Positions 4,656 to 59,946 of a stretch of 64,000 nt of DNA are shown in pieces. The notes beneath the pieces are model-generated. The model was given only the letters and a program-made list of their open reading frames with translations, was not told the DNA's origin and searched no databases. Location: the NCBI GenBank assembly GCA_029891345.1, contig CM057000.1:138182663-138246662 (forward strand), written 5' to 3'. This DNA is from Dryococelus australis. Taxonomy: Eukaryota > Arthropoda > Insecta > Phasmatodea > Phasmatidae. The position numbers and the translations under genes are program-made. Within the stretch, counting starts at the first letter, position 1, and each line of letters opens with the position of its first letter.

Positions 4656-6408
4656 CCTTATGCTGCGCATGGTATAGAACGTGACGGCTATCCCGTGTAC
4701 CACAATTGTGTACCATAATAGTGGCACGCAGTATATTTGACCTGTTTAAATATGGTACACGTACCATGATTATGGTACATTTATTGCAGTTCCAAGGTTT
4801 CTATACCGTAATGATGGTATGGGTGTCAATGTTTATGTGCAAGAAGTGTCAGAAACGGTCCAGTGAAGGGGAGGGGGGCTAAATGACCACCAAGGTTCTC
4901 CCTGACTCAATGGGACGTTTGTAATGCAGTCTGCGTCACGTATGATCGCATGGATGGAAATACAGTGAAGTTGCCGATCCCAAGTCCGGATAAATGTAGA
5001 GAGGGTGGGCTTGAGGTGTGGGCAGCCTACATCTCAAGCACATCACTAGGTGCCGAGCGTATACAGTCGTGCCTTATAGAGGGTGTGCCTCTGGTAATGG
5101 AGCACGAAGAGAAACGTCTACGGCATGCATTAAGGCCCTGTCACACTGTCAAATATTTCCGTCGGTCGAAAAATTGTCTGACGGCTCTGGTTTCCATCAA
5201 ACATTTTGATAACTGGGCCGGTTATAAAATATGTTTAGTGTCATTGACTCAGCCAGTTAGCATCGCACTGATAATAATGGCGGTATCCGACTCACGAGAC
5301 TTCAAAATCGCGAAAAAAATTTCTGGAAACGAAATAATCTTATGAAGACTATTAATTTATAGAGAAACTCTTTGACAATAAATGGCAATTGAAGTGAATG
5401 TTGCATAGTAATACTAGAAAACCAGAGGCATTAATTTTCGTCGTTAAGAACTGGCGTGCATTTATGTCATCGCAACGAGCCTCGTTTTGACTTTCGGGAT
5501 TGGTATCATTGATAGGAATATGTAAAACTCATTTACAAGTGCTGCACGTCTGTAAAAGCCCAACACCTTTCAATACTGGGTATCTGATTTATCATAAAAA
5601 ATGATTGACAAAACATTATTTTCCCCCATTTGTTGCCTCCAAACTAATATTCACTTACATAACGTTGACGTTTGTTGACAGCAACTTAAAAACAGTTTTC
5701 AGATCAAATTTAATTTTTATTTGGGATTAAAGCTTTGCGCGCCTTTTATCGGACTAGGCAGAAGGTGGTGTATACTTGCATGTTGTCATTACTTGAATTC
5801 ATTTACGAGATTCTGCTAATATTTAATATTACAATTAAAATGTATTATTGTAGACAGAACTGGTTTATAGAATTACTAAAAGCTCAATATATGCACATAC
5901 TTATTTCAATACATTATTATCTCATGTTATACTGGACAAGCATACATGAGTTGTTAATCTTCATTAGGTTAGAGTCGCAACAAAAACAGGATGGGCAAAA
6001 ATACCGTGGACTTAAAAATATATGTTAATATATTCCCTATTCTCTCAGTGCTCGTCTTCAAATGTTTGATCAGAAAAGTAAGTTACAGTGAAAACAAAAA
6101 AACAAATCCAGAATGAAAGGGATGCTACCTTCTTAAGTTAATAATCTTTAAAATTGCGTGAGTGTCCTGTCACACAAACTGGACAGAAATTATTGTAAGG
6201 GTGATTGACTGACATCTGGTATATATGATTCGCACGCCCTGAGATCTGCCCGGATATTTCTATGTCGTAATCCAATCTCTGGTTGGTGGCCAGAGAGTAT
6301 GTGGAAGTGACAACAAATACGACAGTCGTAATCAGAGATAAATTAATTAATTTCGCAAATTCTTAAGGTGACAGGCTTAGACTTTAAGAAAGTATACTTT
6401 AGTTCATA
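4656..6408. other. Unassigned DNA with an unrecognised 131-codon frame
   Basis: Frame 4950-5345 on the forward strand is open for 131 codons, but I recognise no domain in it. At 5142 the text 'aaggccctgtcacactgtc' looks like the tip of a short TIR element, but no matching inverted end was found downstream. The rest is AT-rich. Confidence 0.45.
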
Positions 6409-9472: not shown

Positions 9473-10386
9473 TCCTTACTTCTATATAGATGGGAAAGTG
9501 TGTTTGTGTGTTTGTTTGTCCGTCTTTCACGTCAAAACGGAGAGACGGATCGACGTGATTTTTGCACAGATATAGTTGGAGGGTCGGAGAGTGACATAGG
9601 CTACTTTTTATCCCGGAAAAATATATCATTTTCTCAAAAAAAAAATTAATTTTAACTCATTCCTTCATTAAAATTCTTATTGCAATTTTACTGCATGAAA
9701 AAAGCATTGTTAAAACAATAAGTTCCGTCAGTTCTTTCTTTTTTGTCTATGGACTGTCTTTCATTCCTTCCCAAGAGCCGCAGTAGCTCAGTGGGTAGAG
9801 AACCCAATAGTGGGGCCGCATAATCTCAGTGGGTAGAGAACCAAATAGTGGGGCCTCAAGAACTTAGTGGGTAGAGAACCAAACAGTGGGGCCGCAGAAA
9901 CTCAGTGGGTAGAGAACCCAATAGTGGGGCCGCATAATCTCAGTGGGTAGAGAACCAAATAGTGGCGCCTCAAGAACTCAGTGGGTAGAGAACCAAATAG
10001 TGGGGCCGCAGAAACTCAGTGGGTAGAGAACCCAATAGTGGGGCAGCAGAAACTCAGTGGGTAGAGAACCCATGAATGGGGCAGCAGAAACTCAGTGGGT
10101 AGAGAACCCTATAGTGGGTCCGCATAATCTCAGTGGGTAGAGAACCAAATAGTGGCGCCTCAAGAACTCAGTGGGTAGAGAACCAAATAGTGGGGCCGCA
10201 GAAACTCAGTGGGTAGAGAACCCAAGAATGGGGCAGCAGAAACTCAGTGGGTAGAGAACCCAATAGTGGGGCCGCATAATCTCAGTGGGTAGAGAACCAA
10301 ATAGTGGGGCCGCATTGGATAGATATATACCAAGTGGGGCCGCAGTTCTAAATGTCATGCGAACGAAGTCACACGGGTTCTTCTAG
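9473..10386 (+). mobile_element. Helitron-like non-autonomous element
   Basis: The 5' end reads TCCTTACTTC and is preceded by A; the 3' end reads ...gggttcttCTAG followed by T. This fits Helitron insertion between A and T with TC...CTAG ends. The first 200 bp ('tttgtccgtctttcacgtc', 'cggagagacggatcgacgtg', 'gacataggctactttttatc') and the terminal 'gcgaacgaagtcacacggg' resemble small insect Helitrons of the Lep1 type; this is from memory, not a search. No Rep/helicase frame. The interior is almost entirely a 38-bp tandem array. Confidence 0.7.
9787..10318 (+). repeat. 38-bp tandem array, 14 units, with tRNA-like A box
   Basis: Units begin ctcagtgggtagagaacc; the first is preceded by 'gccgcagtag', giving TAGCTCAGTGGGTAGAG, a canonical tRNA A box. 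Unit endings fall into classes (gccgcataat, gcctcaagaa, gccgcagaaa, gcagcagaaa) that recur in the order A-B-C three times, so there is a 114-bp higher-order period. Contained wholly within the Helitron-like element. Confidence 0.93.
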
Positions 10387-11433: not shown

Positions 11434-11692
11434 GGGACCGCGGTGGTGTAGTGGTTAGGCTACTCACCTCCCACCTAGGCGAACCTGGTTCATCCCCGGC
11501 CGGCTTACTCCCGGAGTTTCACAAGTGGGAATCGTGCCTGGCGATGCAGCTGGTCGTCGGGTTTTCTCAGGGATCTCCGTTTCCCCCGCGCTTGCATTTC
11601 GACGTGGATCCATTATCGCCTCGCTTCATCCTCATCAGCTCTCAAGACCTCGTTGTTAAGACCCTTCCAAATCTCTTCACTCACTCTCAAAT
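11434..11692 (+). mobile_element. tRNA-derived SINE (SINE-A), near full length
   Basis: Starts gggaccgcggtggtgtagtg with A box TGGTGTAGTGGTTAGG. The B-box region is decayed (cctggttcatccccgg). A body shared with 16049-16310 and 59694-59946 follows ('gggaatcgtgcc', 'cctcgcttcatcctcatc', 'tcaagacctcgttgttaaga'), then a conserved tail 'aatctcttcactcactct'. About 259 bp, transcribed by Pol III if active. Confidence 0.85.
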
Positions 11693-13941: not shown

Positions 13942-14199
13942 TTGTTCAATAACTCTCCGTGGTAACTATAATTTTGTTCAATAACTCCCCGTGGTTACTA
14001 TAATTTTGTTCAATAACTCTCCGTGGTTACTATAATTTTGTTCAATAACTCTCCGTGGTTACTATAATTTTGTTCAATAACTCTCCGTGGTTACTATAAT
14101 TTTGTTCAATAACTCTCCGTGGTTACTATAATTTTGTTCAATAACTCTCCGTGGTTACTATAATTTTGTTCAATAACTCTCCGTGGTTACTATAATTTT
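13942..14199. repeat. 32-bp tandem array, 8 units
   Basis: Unit 'gttcaataactctccgtggt' followed by 'tactataatttt'. Copies start every 32 bp from 13944 and are nearly identical; one has cccc for ctcc and the first has gtaac for gttac. The homogeneity suggests recent expansion. Confidence 0.95.
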
Positions 14200-15884: not shown

Positions 15885-16048
15885 ATACCAAACATTGACC
15901 TACTTCACACCAATTCAGCTCACAAAATCACATGGTCAATAGTGAGAAACCTGTTTGTTTCTATCTTAATGTTTAAAAGACATGTTCTTTTAAATGCATA
16001 AAATACTTTTACAATATTCAACTTAATATAATTGCATAAAAAAATATA
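15885..16048. other. Spacer DNA
   Basis: AT-rich, no feature. Confidence 0.5.
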
Positions 16049-16310
16049 GACCACGATGGTGTGGTGGTTAGACTACTCGCCTACCACCATTGCGAACTGG
16101 GTTCGATTCTCAGTTGGGTCCCCCCCCCCCCCCGAATTCTCACATTTAAAAATCGTGCCGGACGATGCCACTGATCGGTGGGATATCCCATTTCCGCTTG
16201 CCCACCCTTGCATTCCGGTGCCGCTTCATGCTCACCTCGCTTCACCCTCATCGGTTCTCGAGACCTTCGACGTTGAGAGCCCCCCCGAATCTCTTCGCTC
16301 ACTCACGCGT
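16049..16310 (+). mobile_element. tRNA-derived SINE (SINE-A) with poly-C insertion
   Basis: A box in gaccacgatggtgtggtgg..., B box GGGTTCGATTCTC at about 16101-16113, then an unusual run of about 14 C where the body begins. The body ('cacttgcccacccttgcattcc'-like text, 'cctcgcttcaccctcatc') and tail ('aatctcttcgctcactc') follow. The best kept A and B boxes of the SINE-A copies here. Confidence 0.87.
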
Positions 16311-24783: not shown

Positions 24784-25151
24784 CGCTATTCACGATAAAG
24801 TGAGCACTTTCGAAAGCCCTGCTTCAGATCTACTTGTATTCGGGTTGCGTATTCTTCCGCCTTACATAAAATTAGCGTTGCCTTGGGCCTCATCACTTTA
24901 TTCACGCGTCGGTCAAGTGAAACTGTAAAATTGTTGGAAAAGGAAAATTTCGCAGATCTGCTAATTTTTACACTTCGGTGCATTAGGAAAAATAAGAAGC
25001 GAAAGAAATAATCTGAATCAATATAAATAGTTACCTAACACTTTTTATTAACTGTCAAGACATGGAACTACTTTTCCTCCATCGTTACCAACTTTACTGG
25101 GCGCATTTTCTCAGGTTGATTTCAAAAGTTCTCACTTTATCGTGAACAGCC
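24784..25151 (+). mobile_element. Family 1 TIR element, long subfamily with internal deletion
   Basis: About 368 bp with both ends (cgctattcacgataaagtga ... ctttatcgtgaacagcc). Compared with 421-bp copies it lacks the 'gcaggtaggggcagtgac' stretch near the 3' end. Confidence 0.86.
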
Positions 25152-25254
25152 TTTATGCATTAGAAACGCACTTATTTTCTCTCTGTTTTGTTCATATTAA
25201 TTATGTATGAATTATTAAAATTCATTAATAAAAATTTGCAAAAGTTAAAGTTAA

Positions 25255-25400: not shown

Positions 25401-25487
25401 ATCCGTAAATGCTTAACTGTTGACAACATTGTGCATTTATACTTTATTCACCGCTGCTCGATTGAAAACCGGTTAATGTATCTTGGA

Positions 25488-25600
25488 TAAATAAGGGAAA
25501 TATTCGGACGGGTCTTATCAGCGAGATTTTGTAATCAAATGAGGGTGAAACAAGGTGGAAATGGAGTACCACCAGAACACAAGGATGGGGGGGGGAGAGG
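25488..25600 (-). mobile_element. SINE-A body fragment, head missing
   Basis: Reverse-strand text matches the SINE-A body: 'tccatttccaccttgtttca' then 'ccctcatttg', then a 'gacccgtccgaat' tail. Contains a G run of about 9-10. It is a second SINE body placed directly beside the expanded SINE that follows. Confidence 0.65.
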
Positions 25601-26935
25601 ATTAGAGTGGAGACATTTGGGCGACTTTTAAAAACGGGGTGTTGAGGGCCGATGAGGGCGAAACGAGGTGAGAATGGAGCAGCGCCGGAATGAAAGAGCG
25701 GGGGGAACGGGAGATCCTCGGGAAAACCCGTCGGTCTACACCACTGCGGTCGCCTTGGTGGGGAGCAACCACTAGAGCTACACCACTGCGGTCGCCTTGG
25801 TGGGCAGCAACCACTAAAGCTACACCACTGCGGTCGCCTTGGTGGGGAGCAACCACTAAATCTACACCACTGCGGTCGCCTTGGTGGGGAGCAACCGCTA
25901 AATCTACACCACTGCGGTCGCCTTGGTGGGGAGCAACCACTAAATCTACACCACTGCGGTCGCCTTGGTGGGGAGCAACCACTGAGCTACACCACTGCGG
26001 TCGCCTTGGTGGGCAGCAACCACTAAAGCTACACCACTGCGGTCGCCTTGGTGGGGAGCAACCACTGAGCTACACCACTGCGGTCGCCTTGGTGGGCAGC
26101 AACCACTAAAGCTACACCACTGCGGTCGCCTTGGTGGGGAGCAACCACTAAATCTACACCACTGCGGTCGCCTTGGTGGGAGCAACCACTAAATCTACAC
26201 CACTGCGGTCGCCTTGGTGGGGAGCAACCACTAAATCTACACCACTGCGGTCGCCTTGGTGGGGAGCAACCACTGAGCTACACCACTGCGGTCGCCTTGG
26301 TGGGCAGCAACCACTAAAGCTACACCACTGCGGTCGCCTTGGTGGGGAGCAACCACTAAATCTACACCACTGCGGTCGCCTTGGTGGGGAGCAACCACTA
26401 AATCTACACCACTGCGGTCGCCTTGGTGGGGAGCAACCACTATAGCTACACCACTGCGGTCGCCTTGGTGGGGAGCAACCACTAAATCTACACCACTGCG
26501 GTCGCCTTGGTGGGGAGCAACCACTAAATCTACACCACTGCGGTCGCCTTGGTGGGGAGCAACCACTAGAGCTACACCACTGCGGTCGCCTTGGTGGGGA
26601 GCAACCACTATAGCTACACCACTGCGGTCGCCTTGGTGGGGAGCAACCACTAAATCTACACCACTGCGGTCGCCTTGGTGGGGAGCAGCCACTATAGCTA
26701 CACCACTGCGGTCGCCTTGGTGGGGAGCAACCACTATAGCTACACCACTGCGGTCGCCTTGGTGGGGAGCAACCACTATAGCTACACCACTGCGGTCGCC
26801 TTGGTGGGGAGCAACCACTATAGCTACACCACTGCGGTCGCCTTGGTGGGGAGCAGCCACTATAGCTACACCACTGCGGTCGCCTTGGTGGGGAGCAACC
26901 ACTAAATCTACACCACTGCGGGCCCCAATCCATCT
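25601..26935 (-). mobile_element. SINE-A copy with massively expanded tRNA-like head
   Basis: On the reverse strand the element starts near 26930 (ggcccgcagtggtgtag), passes through a 42-bp tandem array, and continues at about 25731 into the normal SINE-A body: 'gttttcccgaggatctcccg', 'cattctcacctcgtttcgcc', 'ctcatcggccctcaa', ending near 'aaatgtctccactc'. Head, array and body are collinear with SINE-A, so the array is an internal expansion and not an unrelated satellite. Confidence 0.8.
25732..26927 (-). repeat. 42-bp tandem array, about 28 units, from SINE A-box region
   Basis: Forward unit: ctacaccactgcggtcgcct followed by tggtggggagcaaccactaaat. Its reverse reads gaccgcagtggtgtag...agtggttgctccccaccaaggc, clearly the SINE-A head (gaccgcggtggtgtagtgg...cacctaggcgaacc). 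Variants lie in the linker (taaat, tagag, taaag, tatag, and a 41-bp form with tgag). Because 42 is divisible by 3, long frames of a 14-residue repeat appear on both strands; they are not genes. Confidence 0.96.
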
Positions 26936-27165
26936 TGGAGAAAAGAATATAATATTTCTGATTTAGTTCTCGCTCTCACTCATAGATAAGTGTGAATTGT
27001 AGAAAGCGAGTGTGTATGTCAGTGTACAGAGACAGATAGAGAAAAAAAGAGAGAGAGAGAGAGAATACTCCTGTAGGCCTGGACACATCTACTGGCATTC
27101 AAGATAAGTTAGAAGTGAACAGTATATGCCTCTGCAAGCGCGTCAACACTGTTGGTCTGTATTTA
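26936..27165. repeat. Spacer with (GA)n microsatellite
   Basis: A GA run at about 27045-27064; otherwise no feature. Confidence 0.7.
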
Positions 27166-52175: not shown

Positions 52176-52735
52176 TAAGAGAATAGGTTGTTCAAAAATA
52201 ATTCGTGATTAACTTAGGGGAGTTGTTATACACACGGCTATTCATGTTTATTAGTGTGTTCTCTAAAATTAAAGAATTATATTTGAAGGTTTCCCTTACA
52301 GTAACTGCGAATAATGTAATGTTAACACTGACACCGAATTCAGAACTTTATTTCTATGTATTTAAATAAAGCCTTCTTCTTTTATTGCTAGAGTCTAGTC
52401 ACTTCTATTAGATTGTGCTGTACTCACGTTCAGATCAGGTTGTAACAGAAATAATTACCACAAGTGTATTCTTACCCTAATACTTGCCCTAAAACAGTTC
52501 TGTATTACATTTGACATAATAACAGCTGATGTTTTCGTTAGTCGGACAGAATTTGACTTTCAGGTGTGGAACTTTTTTACAAAAAGATTGTATTTTATGT
52601 GGAGAATGCAAACTCATTTTGGAGCCGTTCGATACATTAATTCTCACAGCTACTTTATTTTAAATAACTGCTAAAGAAATTATTGAAAATTCAAAAGAAA
52701 TCCAGTAACGAAAGTATTTATGTGATTTTCCAGTC
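52176..52735. other. AT-rich DNA
   Basis: No feature recognised. Confidence 0.5.
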
Positions 52736-53515
52736 TGGAAACATATAGTTACGAAGATGGATATGGTGTTGTTAGTAAGTAATTACAGTGGATTCCAGCC
52801 TGGAAATATATAGTTACGAAGATGGATATGGTGTTGTTAGTAAGTAATTACAGTGGATTCCAGCCTGGAAATATATAGTTACGAAGATGGATATGGTGTT
52901 GTTAGTAAGTAATTACAGTGGATTCCAGTCTGGAAATATATAGTTACGAAGATGGATATGGTGTTGTTAGTAAGTAATTACAGTGGATTCCAGCCTGGAA
53001 ATATATAGTTACGAAGATGGATATGGTGTTGTTAGTAAGTAATTACAGTGGATTCCAGTCTGGAAATATATAGTTACGAAGATGGATATAGTGTTGTTAG
53101 TAAGTAATTACAGTGGATTCCAGTCTGGAAATATATAGTTACGAAGATGGATATAGTGTTGTTAGTAAGTAATTACAGTGGATTCCAGTCTGGAAATATA
53201 TAGTTACGAAGATGGATATGGTGTTGTTAGTAAGTAATTACAGTGGATTCCAGTCTGGAAATATATAGTTACGAAGATGGATATGGTGTTGTTAGTAAGT
53301 AATTACAGTGGATTCCAGCCTGGAAATATATAGTTACGAAGATGGATATGGTGTTGTTAGTAAGTAATTACAGTGGATTCCAGTCTGGAAATATATAGTT
53401 ACGAAGATGGATATGGTGTTGTTAGTAAGTAATTACAGTGGATTCCAGTCTGGAAATATATAGTTACGAAGATGGATATGGTGTTGTTAGTAAGAAATTA
53501 CAGTGGATTCCGGTT
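52736..53515 (+). repeat. 65-bp tandem array, 12 units
   Basis: Unit 'tggaaatatatagttacgaa' + 'gatggatatggtgttgttag' + 'taagtaattacagtggattc' + 'cagcc'. Twelve copies at exact 65-bp spacing, with variation almost only at two sites (cagcc/cagtc and atggtg/atagtg). The first unit has aaacata, and the last runs into 'ggttggttgcg'. Very recent expansion. Confidence 0.97.
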
Positions 53516-59392: not shown

Positions 59393-59693
59393 TGTAATAA
59401 TATTTGCATAATAACTATTTAGTACTGCACTATAAATCTGAAATACAGAGAATTGAACCAAATCATTGAAAATAGTGAACATTGAGCGGCTAGTAATAAG
59501 TGCATGATAACTAATTGATATGATGGCTGAATTTCACCGACTGATTTGCGATTCCCACTGAATGTTGAGAATTGCACTCCCCTATGTCACTTTTCCTTAG
59601 TTCATTTCCTTGCTTTACCAGTCAGAAGTAGCTTATTGACTGACTTTCAGTGAATGTTATTTCACTGAGTGATATCGCTGATTCGGGCTTAGA
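59393..59693. other. Unassigned DNA
   Basis: Contains several 'cactga/tcagtg' near-palindromes; nothing else. Confidence 0.45.
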
Positions 59694-59946
59694 GTGAGTG
59701 AAGAGATTTGGGGAGGCTCTTAACATCCAGGTCTTGAAATCACATGAGGGTGAAGTGAGGTGGCTATGTAGTAGTGCCGGCAATGAGAAGGTGGGGAAAA
59801 CGGGAGATCCCCTAGAAAGCCCTCCGACCAGCGGAATCGTCCGCCACGATTCCCACTTCTGAAAGTCCGGATTGAACCGGCCGGGGACCGAACCCGTTTC
59901 GGATTGGTGGGAAGAGGGCAGTCTAACAGCTCAACCACCGTGGCCC
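59694..59946 (-). mobile_element. tRNA-derived SINE (SINE-A), full length
   Basis: Reverse strand: starts ggggccacggtggttgagct with the A box, B box ACGGGTTCGGTCCCC, body 'gggaatcgtggcggacgatt', 'cctcacttcaccctcatgtg', tail 'aaatctcttcactcactct'. About 253 bp, the most complete SINE-A in the window. Confidence 0.9.

Follow-up and report, generated by a model that had tools for sequence, protein, structure and literature searches.

A probable SINE-derived satellite formed from the head of SINE-A in the stick insect Dryococelus australis

In this study, we analyzed a stretch of 64,000 nucleotides from the Dryococelus australis genome (hereafter the window; contig CM057000.1, positions 138,182,663 to 138,246,662 of the forward strand), together with the assembly to which it belongs (3,415,067,245 bases in 646 contigs). 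Inside one copy of a tRNA-type SINE, termed SINE-A, the window carries a tandem array whose units derive from the A-box part of the SINE head. Head, array and body follow one another in this order on the minus strand, and the segment holding the B box has been lost between array and body. We consider that the array is probably a SINE-derived satellite formed in place. It is of minisatellite size, being 1.2 kb long, and the strict satellite criterion refers to long heterochromatic arrays. Satellite origins are for the most part reconstructed long after they took place. In the present case, the array and its parent sequence have stayed joined, so that both the founding unit and its limits are directly readable.

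Structure of the array and derivation of its unit

Three full copies of SINE-A, those named in the original prediction, served as the yardstick within the window: c1 (11435-11690, plus strand), c2 (16048-16306, plus strand) and c3 (59690-59946, minus strand). A 10-bp duplication, matching at all but one position, borders the last of these, and the flanks of c1 and c2 showed no clear target-site duplication. In addition, a consensus of 252 bp was built from 19 full copies drawn from the assembly, four of which lie downstream of other tandem-head loci; the element that carries the window array was excluded. Perfect A and B boxes, as defined in PMC9191728, occur in the consensus at position 10 (TGGTGTAGTGG) and position 53 (GGTTCGATTCC), respectively. 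ARAGORN drew a tRNA-Val(CAC)-like cloverleaf on the consensus at the relaxed 50% threshold only; with default settings it found no tRNA in the window, and Rfam found none in the window or in the heads of c1 and c3. The term tRNA-like therefore refers mainly to the A and B boxes of SINE-A, since the cloverleaf appeared only at the relaxed threshold. SINE-A is a dispersed element: among the best 40 of 3,795 candidates scored in the assembly, 39 further places were found, and exact words of the head and of the body (GGATCTCCCGTTYC) occur 7,326 and 30,649 times, respectively.

Tandem Repeats Finder, applied to the 64-kb window, placed the array at 25736-26921 with a period of 42, 28.3 copies and 95% matches. 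All parts of the element lie on the minus strand. Read in that direction, a 13-bp candidate target-site duplication (26927-26939) abuts the SINE start, which reads GGGGCC at 26921-26926, as does the start of c3. The array is thus entered from a SINE-A start, as the original prediction had stated. Next come 28 complete head-derived units (25749-26920; repeat finding, unit split and consensus alignment), 24 of them 42 bp and four 41 bp long, which bears out the predicted copy number. A partial 29th unit of 13 bp (25736-25748), recognized from the unit split and the reading of the junction, leads into a SINE-A body that has neither B box nor linker (25605-25735; 123/140 identical to the consensus in a local alignment including the junction). 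Behind it, and oriented alike, lies another piece of SINE-A body, truncated at its 5' end and more diverged (25488-25604; 78/108 identical), followed by the candidate duplication's 3' copy (25475-25487), which is identical to the 5' copy at 11 of 13 positions. The hidden Markov model (HMM) built from c1, c2 and c3 matched the two body pieces as well, at 25835-25605 (E 7e-23, a span that takes in the last units) and at 25590-25500 (E 5e-12). The flanks of the array are ordinary unique-looking DNA with other repeats.

The candidate duplication adjoins the SINE start on one side and the second body piece, at its end, on the other, a placement equalled by 33 of 20,000 random ones. Taken by itself, an exact flank match of 8 bases is weak as a target-site duplication, being reached in 50 of 1,500 random pairs and 11 of 400 shuffles; consequently, only the version tied to the element ends is useful.

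The complete units fall into eight types, arranged on the minus strand as AEBBBEABFAABAACDAGACDCDAHACF. Their differences lie mostly in the four bases 3' of GGTGTAG (ATTT, CTAT, CTTT, CTCT or CTC-), and the 41-bp type CTCA occurs three times, each directly after the CTTT type. Pairwise identity of the units averages 0.962, with a minimum of 0.905. The order of types displayed no clear higher-order pattern, as only lag 7 of the 13 lags stood out (8/1,000 shuffles).

The derivation of the unit from the head was supported by alignment. Each of three unit types aligned with the first 47 bp of the consensus at a score of 36-37, which none of 10,000 shuffles reached, and no significant alignment with the rest of the consensus was obtained (10,000 shuffles). 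The unit is thus the A-box part of the head, as originally proposed, and a chance likeness to the SINE-A head can be rejected. Comparison with the three named copies one by one gave unequal results. Against the c1 head, unit type A scored 28 (0/2,000 shuffles), with 0/2,000 for type D and 2/2,000 for type B. The c3 head gave marginal values (type A, score 17, 95/2,000; 68 to 100/2,000 across types), and the c2 head gave no significant alignment (type A, score 13, 777/2,000; 673 to 777 across types). The unit therefore exceeds shuffled sequence against c1 and the 19-copy consensus, not against c2; the result that the original prediction had named as refuting, an alignment no better than that of shuffles, did not arise. 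Matching is concentrated at both ends of the unit, in CCGCrGTGGTGTAG and in an exact 11-bp run, CCCACCAAGGC, from the anticodon-arm part; the interior differs from the consensus head by indels or internal rearrangement of up to about 9-10 bp.

At its other border, the array joins the body at about SINE position 108, and consensus positions of about 48-107, including the B box and the linker, are absent. Head, array and body had been described as collinear, with an exit into a normal SINE-A body. Their order holds and the continuity does not; likewise, the exit does lead into a SINE-A body, but one that lacks B box and linker and has a second, more diverged piece behind it. No B box was found in the array element. 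A perfect A box (TRGYNNARNNG) is present in three of the 28 units and a match with one extra base in 13; the best match in the remaining units is 10/11, under a loose criterion with only seven fixed positions. The claim that every unit carries a recognizable A-box core is accordingly weak, and the count of about 28 partial Pol III promoters was generous. Furthermore, the variable spot of the units falls within the A-box region. Without a B box, a strong Pol III promoter is unlikely. A scan for bacterial promoters and terminators, which is unsuited to a eukaryote, found nothing. We regard the array as probably functionless in its own right.

Several other repeats were observed in the window. 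At 9777-10314 (plus strand) lies a 38-bp array of 14 units and 10 types, whose unit contains the tRNA A-box-like word CTCAGTGGGTAGAG; kinship with the SINE-A head was considered and rejected, as its unit does not align (567/10,000 shuffles). This array is dispersed, with 138 matches and 38 separate places among the best 40 of 1,807 candidates scored, and both flanks are common to three of seven loci read (L085, L090 and L093). Because it is dispersed with shared flanks, it seems to move within a mobile element while its copy number varies. A motif of about 35 bp, TCTCACTTTATCGTGAACAGCCTTTA (25120-25155), has many copies across the window, in either orientation, and resembles the end of another abundant repeat family. 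Two homogeneous arrays with 98% matches each, 32 bp x 8.1 at 13942-14199 and 65 bp x 12.1 at 52728-53511, have flanks without a match elsewhere in the window. In addition, positions 4918-5007 (plus strand) gave a sub-threshold match to the type-P1 twister ribozyme (33.9 bits versus a gathering score of 67.2).

Tandem duplications of the SINE-A head elsewhere in the genome

A query of two units against the assembly, in a search that skips very common words, returned 14 matches and one first-look candidate, and all matches lay in the window array. The 42-bp unit was thus found at one locus rather than at many, so a mobile 42-bp array was ruled out, and no array without a SINE body beside it, the finding that would have spoken against the original prediction, was matched elsewhere. 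When exact head words were searched in pairs at a spacing of 20-50 bases, the assembly yielded 50 matches and the reversed control none. Of these, 28 belonged to the window array, 17 to C9, two to C6 and one each to C7, C8:104 Mb and C10.

The largest of these further arrays, at C9:7.75 Mb (L075:2317-7269), comprises 106.9 copies of a 47-bp unit over 4,953 bp and exits into a full SINE-A with its B-box region. Stretches of it are rich in small indels (as many as 47 indel bases in ~500), resembling an unpolished assembly, and a 141-bp spacing pattern was noticed close to its 5' end. The C6 (53 bp x 5.0) and C7 (41 bp x 2.0) loci each have a unit that joins 5' flank (22-26 bp) to head (19-27 bp), with a full SINE-A on the 3' side. 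The unit at C8:104 Mb (59 bp x 2.1) consists of a few flank bases and ~53 bp of head, and a full SINE-A again follows 3'. At C10 (L076, C10:14477716), a 27-bp array of 13 units contains the SINE-A head word and T-runs; no SINE-A match was found beside it, and it may stand outside the SINE-A head series. No two of these six arrays, the window array included, have a unit in common, and the passage from the terminal unit into SINE sequence was seen at the window, C9, C6, C7 and C8:104 Mb arrays. Other SINE-A loci with at least two head units, which the original prediction had suggested looking for, are hence present (2, 5 and 107 copies), and these independent duplications strengthen its view of a satellite born inside a SINE, which is a fair reading of the locus. 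Independent cases with 2, 5, 28 and 107 copies in one genome make first duplication, expansion and homogenisation directly comparable.

Head words 51-81 bases apart gave 174 matches (35 forward and 139 reverse; none in the control). Among these, 27 reverse matches correspond to the window array and 20 forward matches to C9, and 13 forward matches were left unplaced. Among the matches listed, two lie on C4 (14.73 Mb) and all others at C8:7,129,093-7,150,397. The latter (C8:7129093-7150397, minus strand) is an array more than 21 kb long, with a unit of ~77 bp made of SINE-A head and ~35 other bases. No exit into a SINE body was found there by pattern, a search that a mutated exit would escape; this result speaks against simply adding that array to the series. 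In 37 sampled SINE-A matches, tandem repeats overlapped only loci already found by the tandem search.

Head and body of SINE-A were compared as sites of tandem duplication. At a spacing of 20-50, six loci were found with head words (7,326 words) versus one, on C17, with the body word (30,649 words), giving Fisher p = 3.0e-4, or 1.3e-3 minus the window locus and 5.9e-3 minus the window and C10 loci, for post hoc patterns of exact words with words, not elements, as denominators. The counts include array copies and use a single body word, GGATCTCCCGTTYC. The C17 case (L080, C17:299634269-299634400) is a 59-bp tandem repeat in three copies within the SINE-A body, and body words at 51-81 spacing added one more locus. 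We regard the preference for the head as a lead, not as proof. It is conceivable, though doubtful, that the A-box half of the SINE head is a preferred site of tandem duplication that repeatedly founds satellites with independent units, in a series from a dimer to more than 21 kb, and that the body hardly ever does so. If this were true, the cause would lie in the head or the 5' junction, for example in Pol III occupancy or in the 5' end of reverse transcription.

Origin of the array and alternative explanations

Under formation in place, a tRNA-type SINE-A copy would have inserted and then aged. Head positions 1-47, comprising the 5' side up to and including the anticodon-arm-like segment, would have been duplicated, and positions ~48-107 with the B box would have been lost. 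Unequal exchange or replication slippage would then have raised the 42-bp unit to 28 copies and made these homogeneous. Unequal exchange and slippage are the standard account of later array growth, and we infer that an exchange mechanism multiplied the units here. Expansion or homogenisation appears to be younger than the insertion, because the units are 0.96 alike, versus 0.88 between body and consensus. Candidates for the seed of the process were considered as well. Hairpin-driven expansion was rejected, as unit dimers fold no better than shuffles, either as DNA or as RNA (z -0.64 to 1.36). For the loss of positions 48-107, the head start showed no significant similarity to the rest of the consensus (1,371/2,000 shuffles), and a short-homology seed was rejected: c1 has GGCGA at 44 and 106, but the tested stretches share no 5-mer. 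No seed mechanism is thus supported, because neither folding nor internal homology provides one.

The two body pieces and the outer duplication allow other histories. Since the second piece is the more diverged (78/108 versus 123/140) and the duplication is an outer one, abutting the old tail and the first head, a younger SINE-A may have inserted in or next to an older one, the intervening parts being gone. In this variant of formation in place, which is speculative as an account of the first duplication, a deletion between the heads would have produced two tandem heads that subsequently expanded. We hold it to be possible and somewhat doubtful: the old element is gone between its head and about position 140, a target-site duplication of the younger copy was not identified at the locus, and C6, C7 and C8:104 Mb are simple duplications including 5' flank, for which nesting is unneeded. 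The same candidate duplication encloses the whole composite (33/20,000 random placements), as would be expected if the array had already existed in the source SINE and had been retroposed as one long element of array, body and second body piece. Such a history is unlikely, as the two-unit query gave no second locus in the assembly, the units are more alike (0.96) than body and consensus (0.88), and the body pieces are unequally diverged.

Arrays are difficult to assemble, and parts of the C9 array carry many small indels, so an assembly error might have inflated the copy number or perhaps created the array itself. We think this slightly less likely still than an array inherited from the source SINE, given the eight unit types in irregular order, just two kinds of length change and ordinary unique-looking flanks with other repeats. 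An unrelated older satellite, lying beside SINE-A and resembling its head by chance or through common tRNA ancestry, would agree with the non-significant alignment to the c2 head and with the tRNA A-box-like word found again at 9777, in an unrelated array of 38-bp units. It is nevertheless very improbable: no shuffle among 10,000 equalled the alignment with the consensus, the exact run CCCACCAAGGC is common to the unit and the anticodon-arm part, the SINE-A head gave no significant alignment with the 38-bp unit (567/10,000), and the array is a private locus with SINE sequence on either side. Equally improbable is that the array has been kept by virtue of its repeated A boxes, as a binding site for Pol III factors, a decoy or a barrier. 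Every unit does retain CCGCAGTGGTGTAG and three have a perfect A box, but the other 25 of 28 do not, no B box was found, and the units vary at a spot within the A-box region. Formation in place, from the head of the SINE-A copy still attached, thus remains the probable origin.

Comparison with known SINE-derived satellites

SINE-derived satellites (sSats) have been described in 56 squamate genomes (Vassetzky et al., 2023; PMC10702118), and their restriction to squamates is treated there as uncertain. A search of the open-access literature, with most subscription journals outside its scope, found no SINE-derived satellite of an insect. SINE B1 of the mouse is a 7SL-type SINE. The mouse VNTR derived from it (Bois et al., 1998, as tabulated in PMC9659126) is a tandem repeat that started inside a SINE, as here, but with the very short unit (GGCAGA)n, whereas the window unit comes from a tRNA-type head. 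Hy/Pol III of Hydromantes, OAX or satellite 1 of Xenopus, Rana/polIII and PolIII/TAN of Cynops are tandem repeats with a tRNA-like region, like the window array (PMC10702118; PMC9659126). Their units measure ~200-360 nt where a length is given in these sources, compared with 41/42 bp in the window. In addition, their link to SINEs is considered inconclusive (PMC10702118), whereas the window array is still joined to a SINE body.

The closest likeness is to the squamate sSats. In both cases, tandem repeats arose from part of a tRNA-type SINE and the SINE continues from the array end; unit numbers ranging from low to high, alternating subvariants and greater homogeneity of longer arrays are shared as well (PMC10702118). 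One gecko variant matches the tRNA portion, similar to the window unit, and some minor squamate variants are confined to one locus (PMC10702118). In contrast, the main snake unit (positions 42-108) takes in the 3' portion of the head, box B included, and some of the body, whereas the window unit represents the 5' A-box half of the head and its element has lost the B-box segment. Snakes have thousands of loci with one dominant unit (PMC10702118), while each locus found in this genome has its own unit, and the parent of the window array belongs to a SINE family different from the squamate ones. The window array is therefore a SINE-derived satellite built on the A-box half, of a kind known from squamates.
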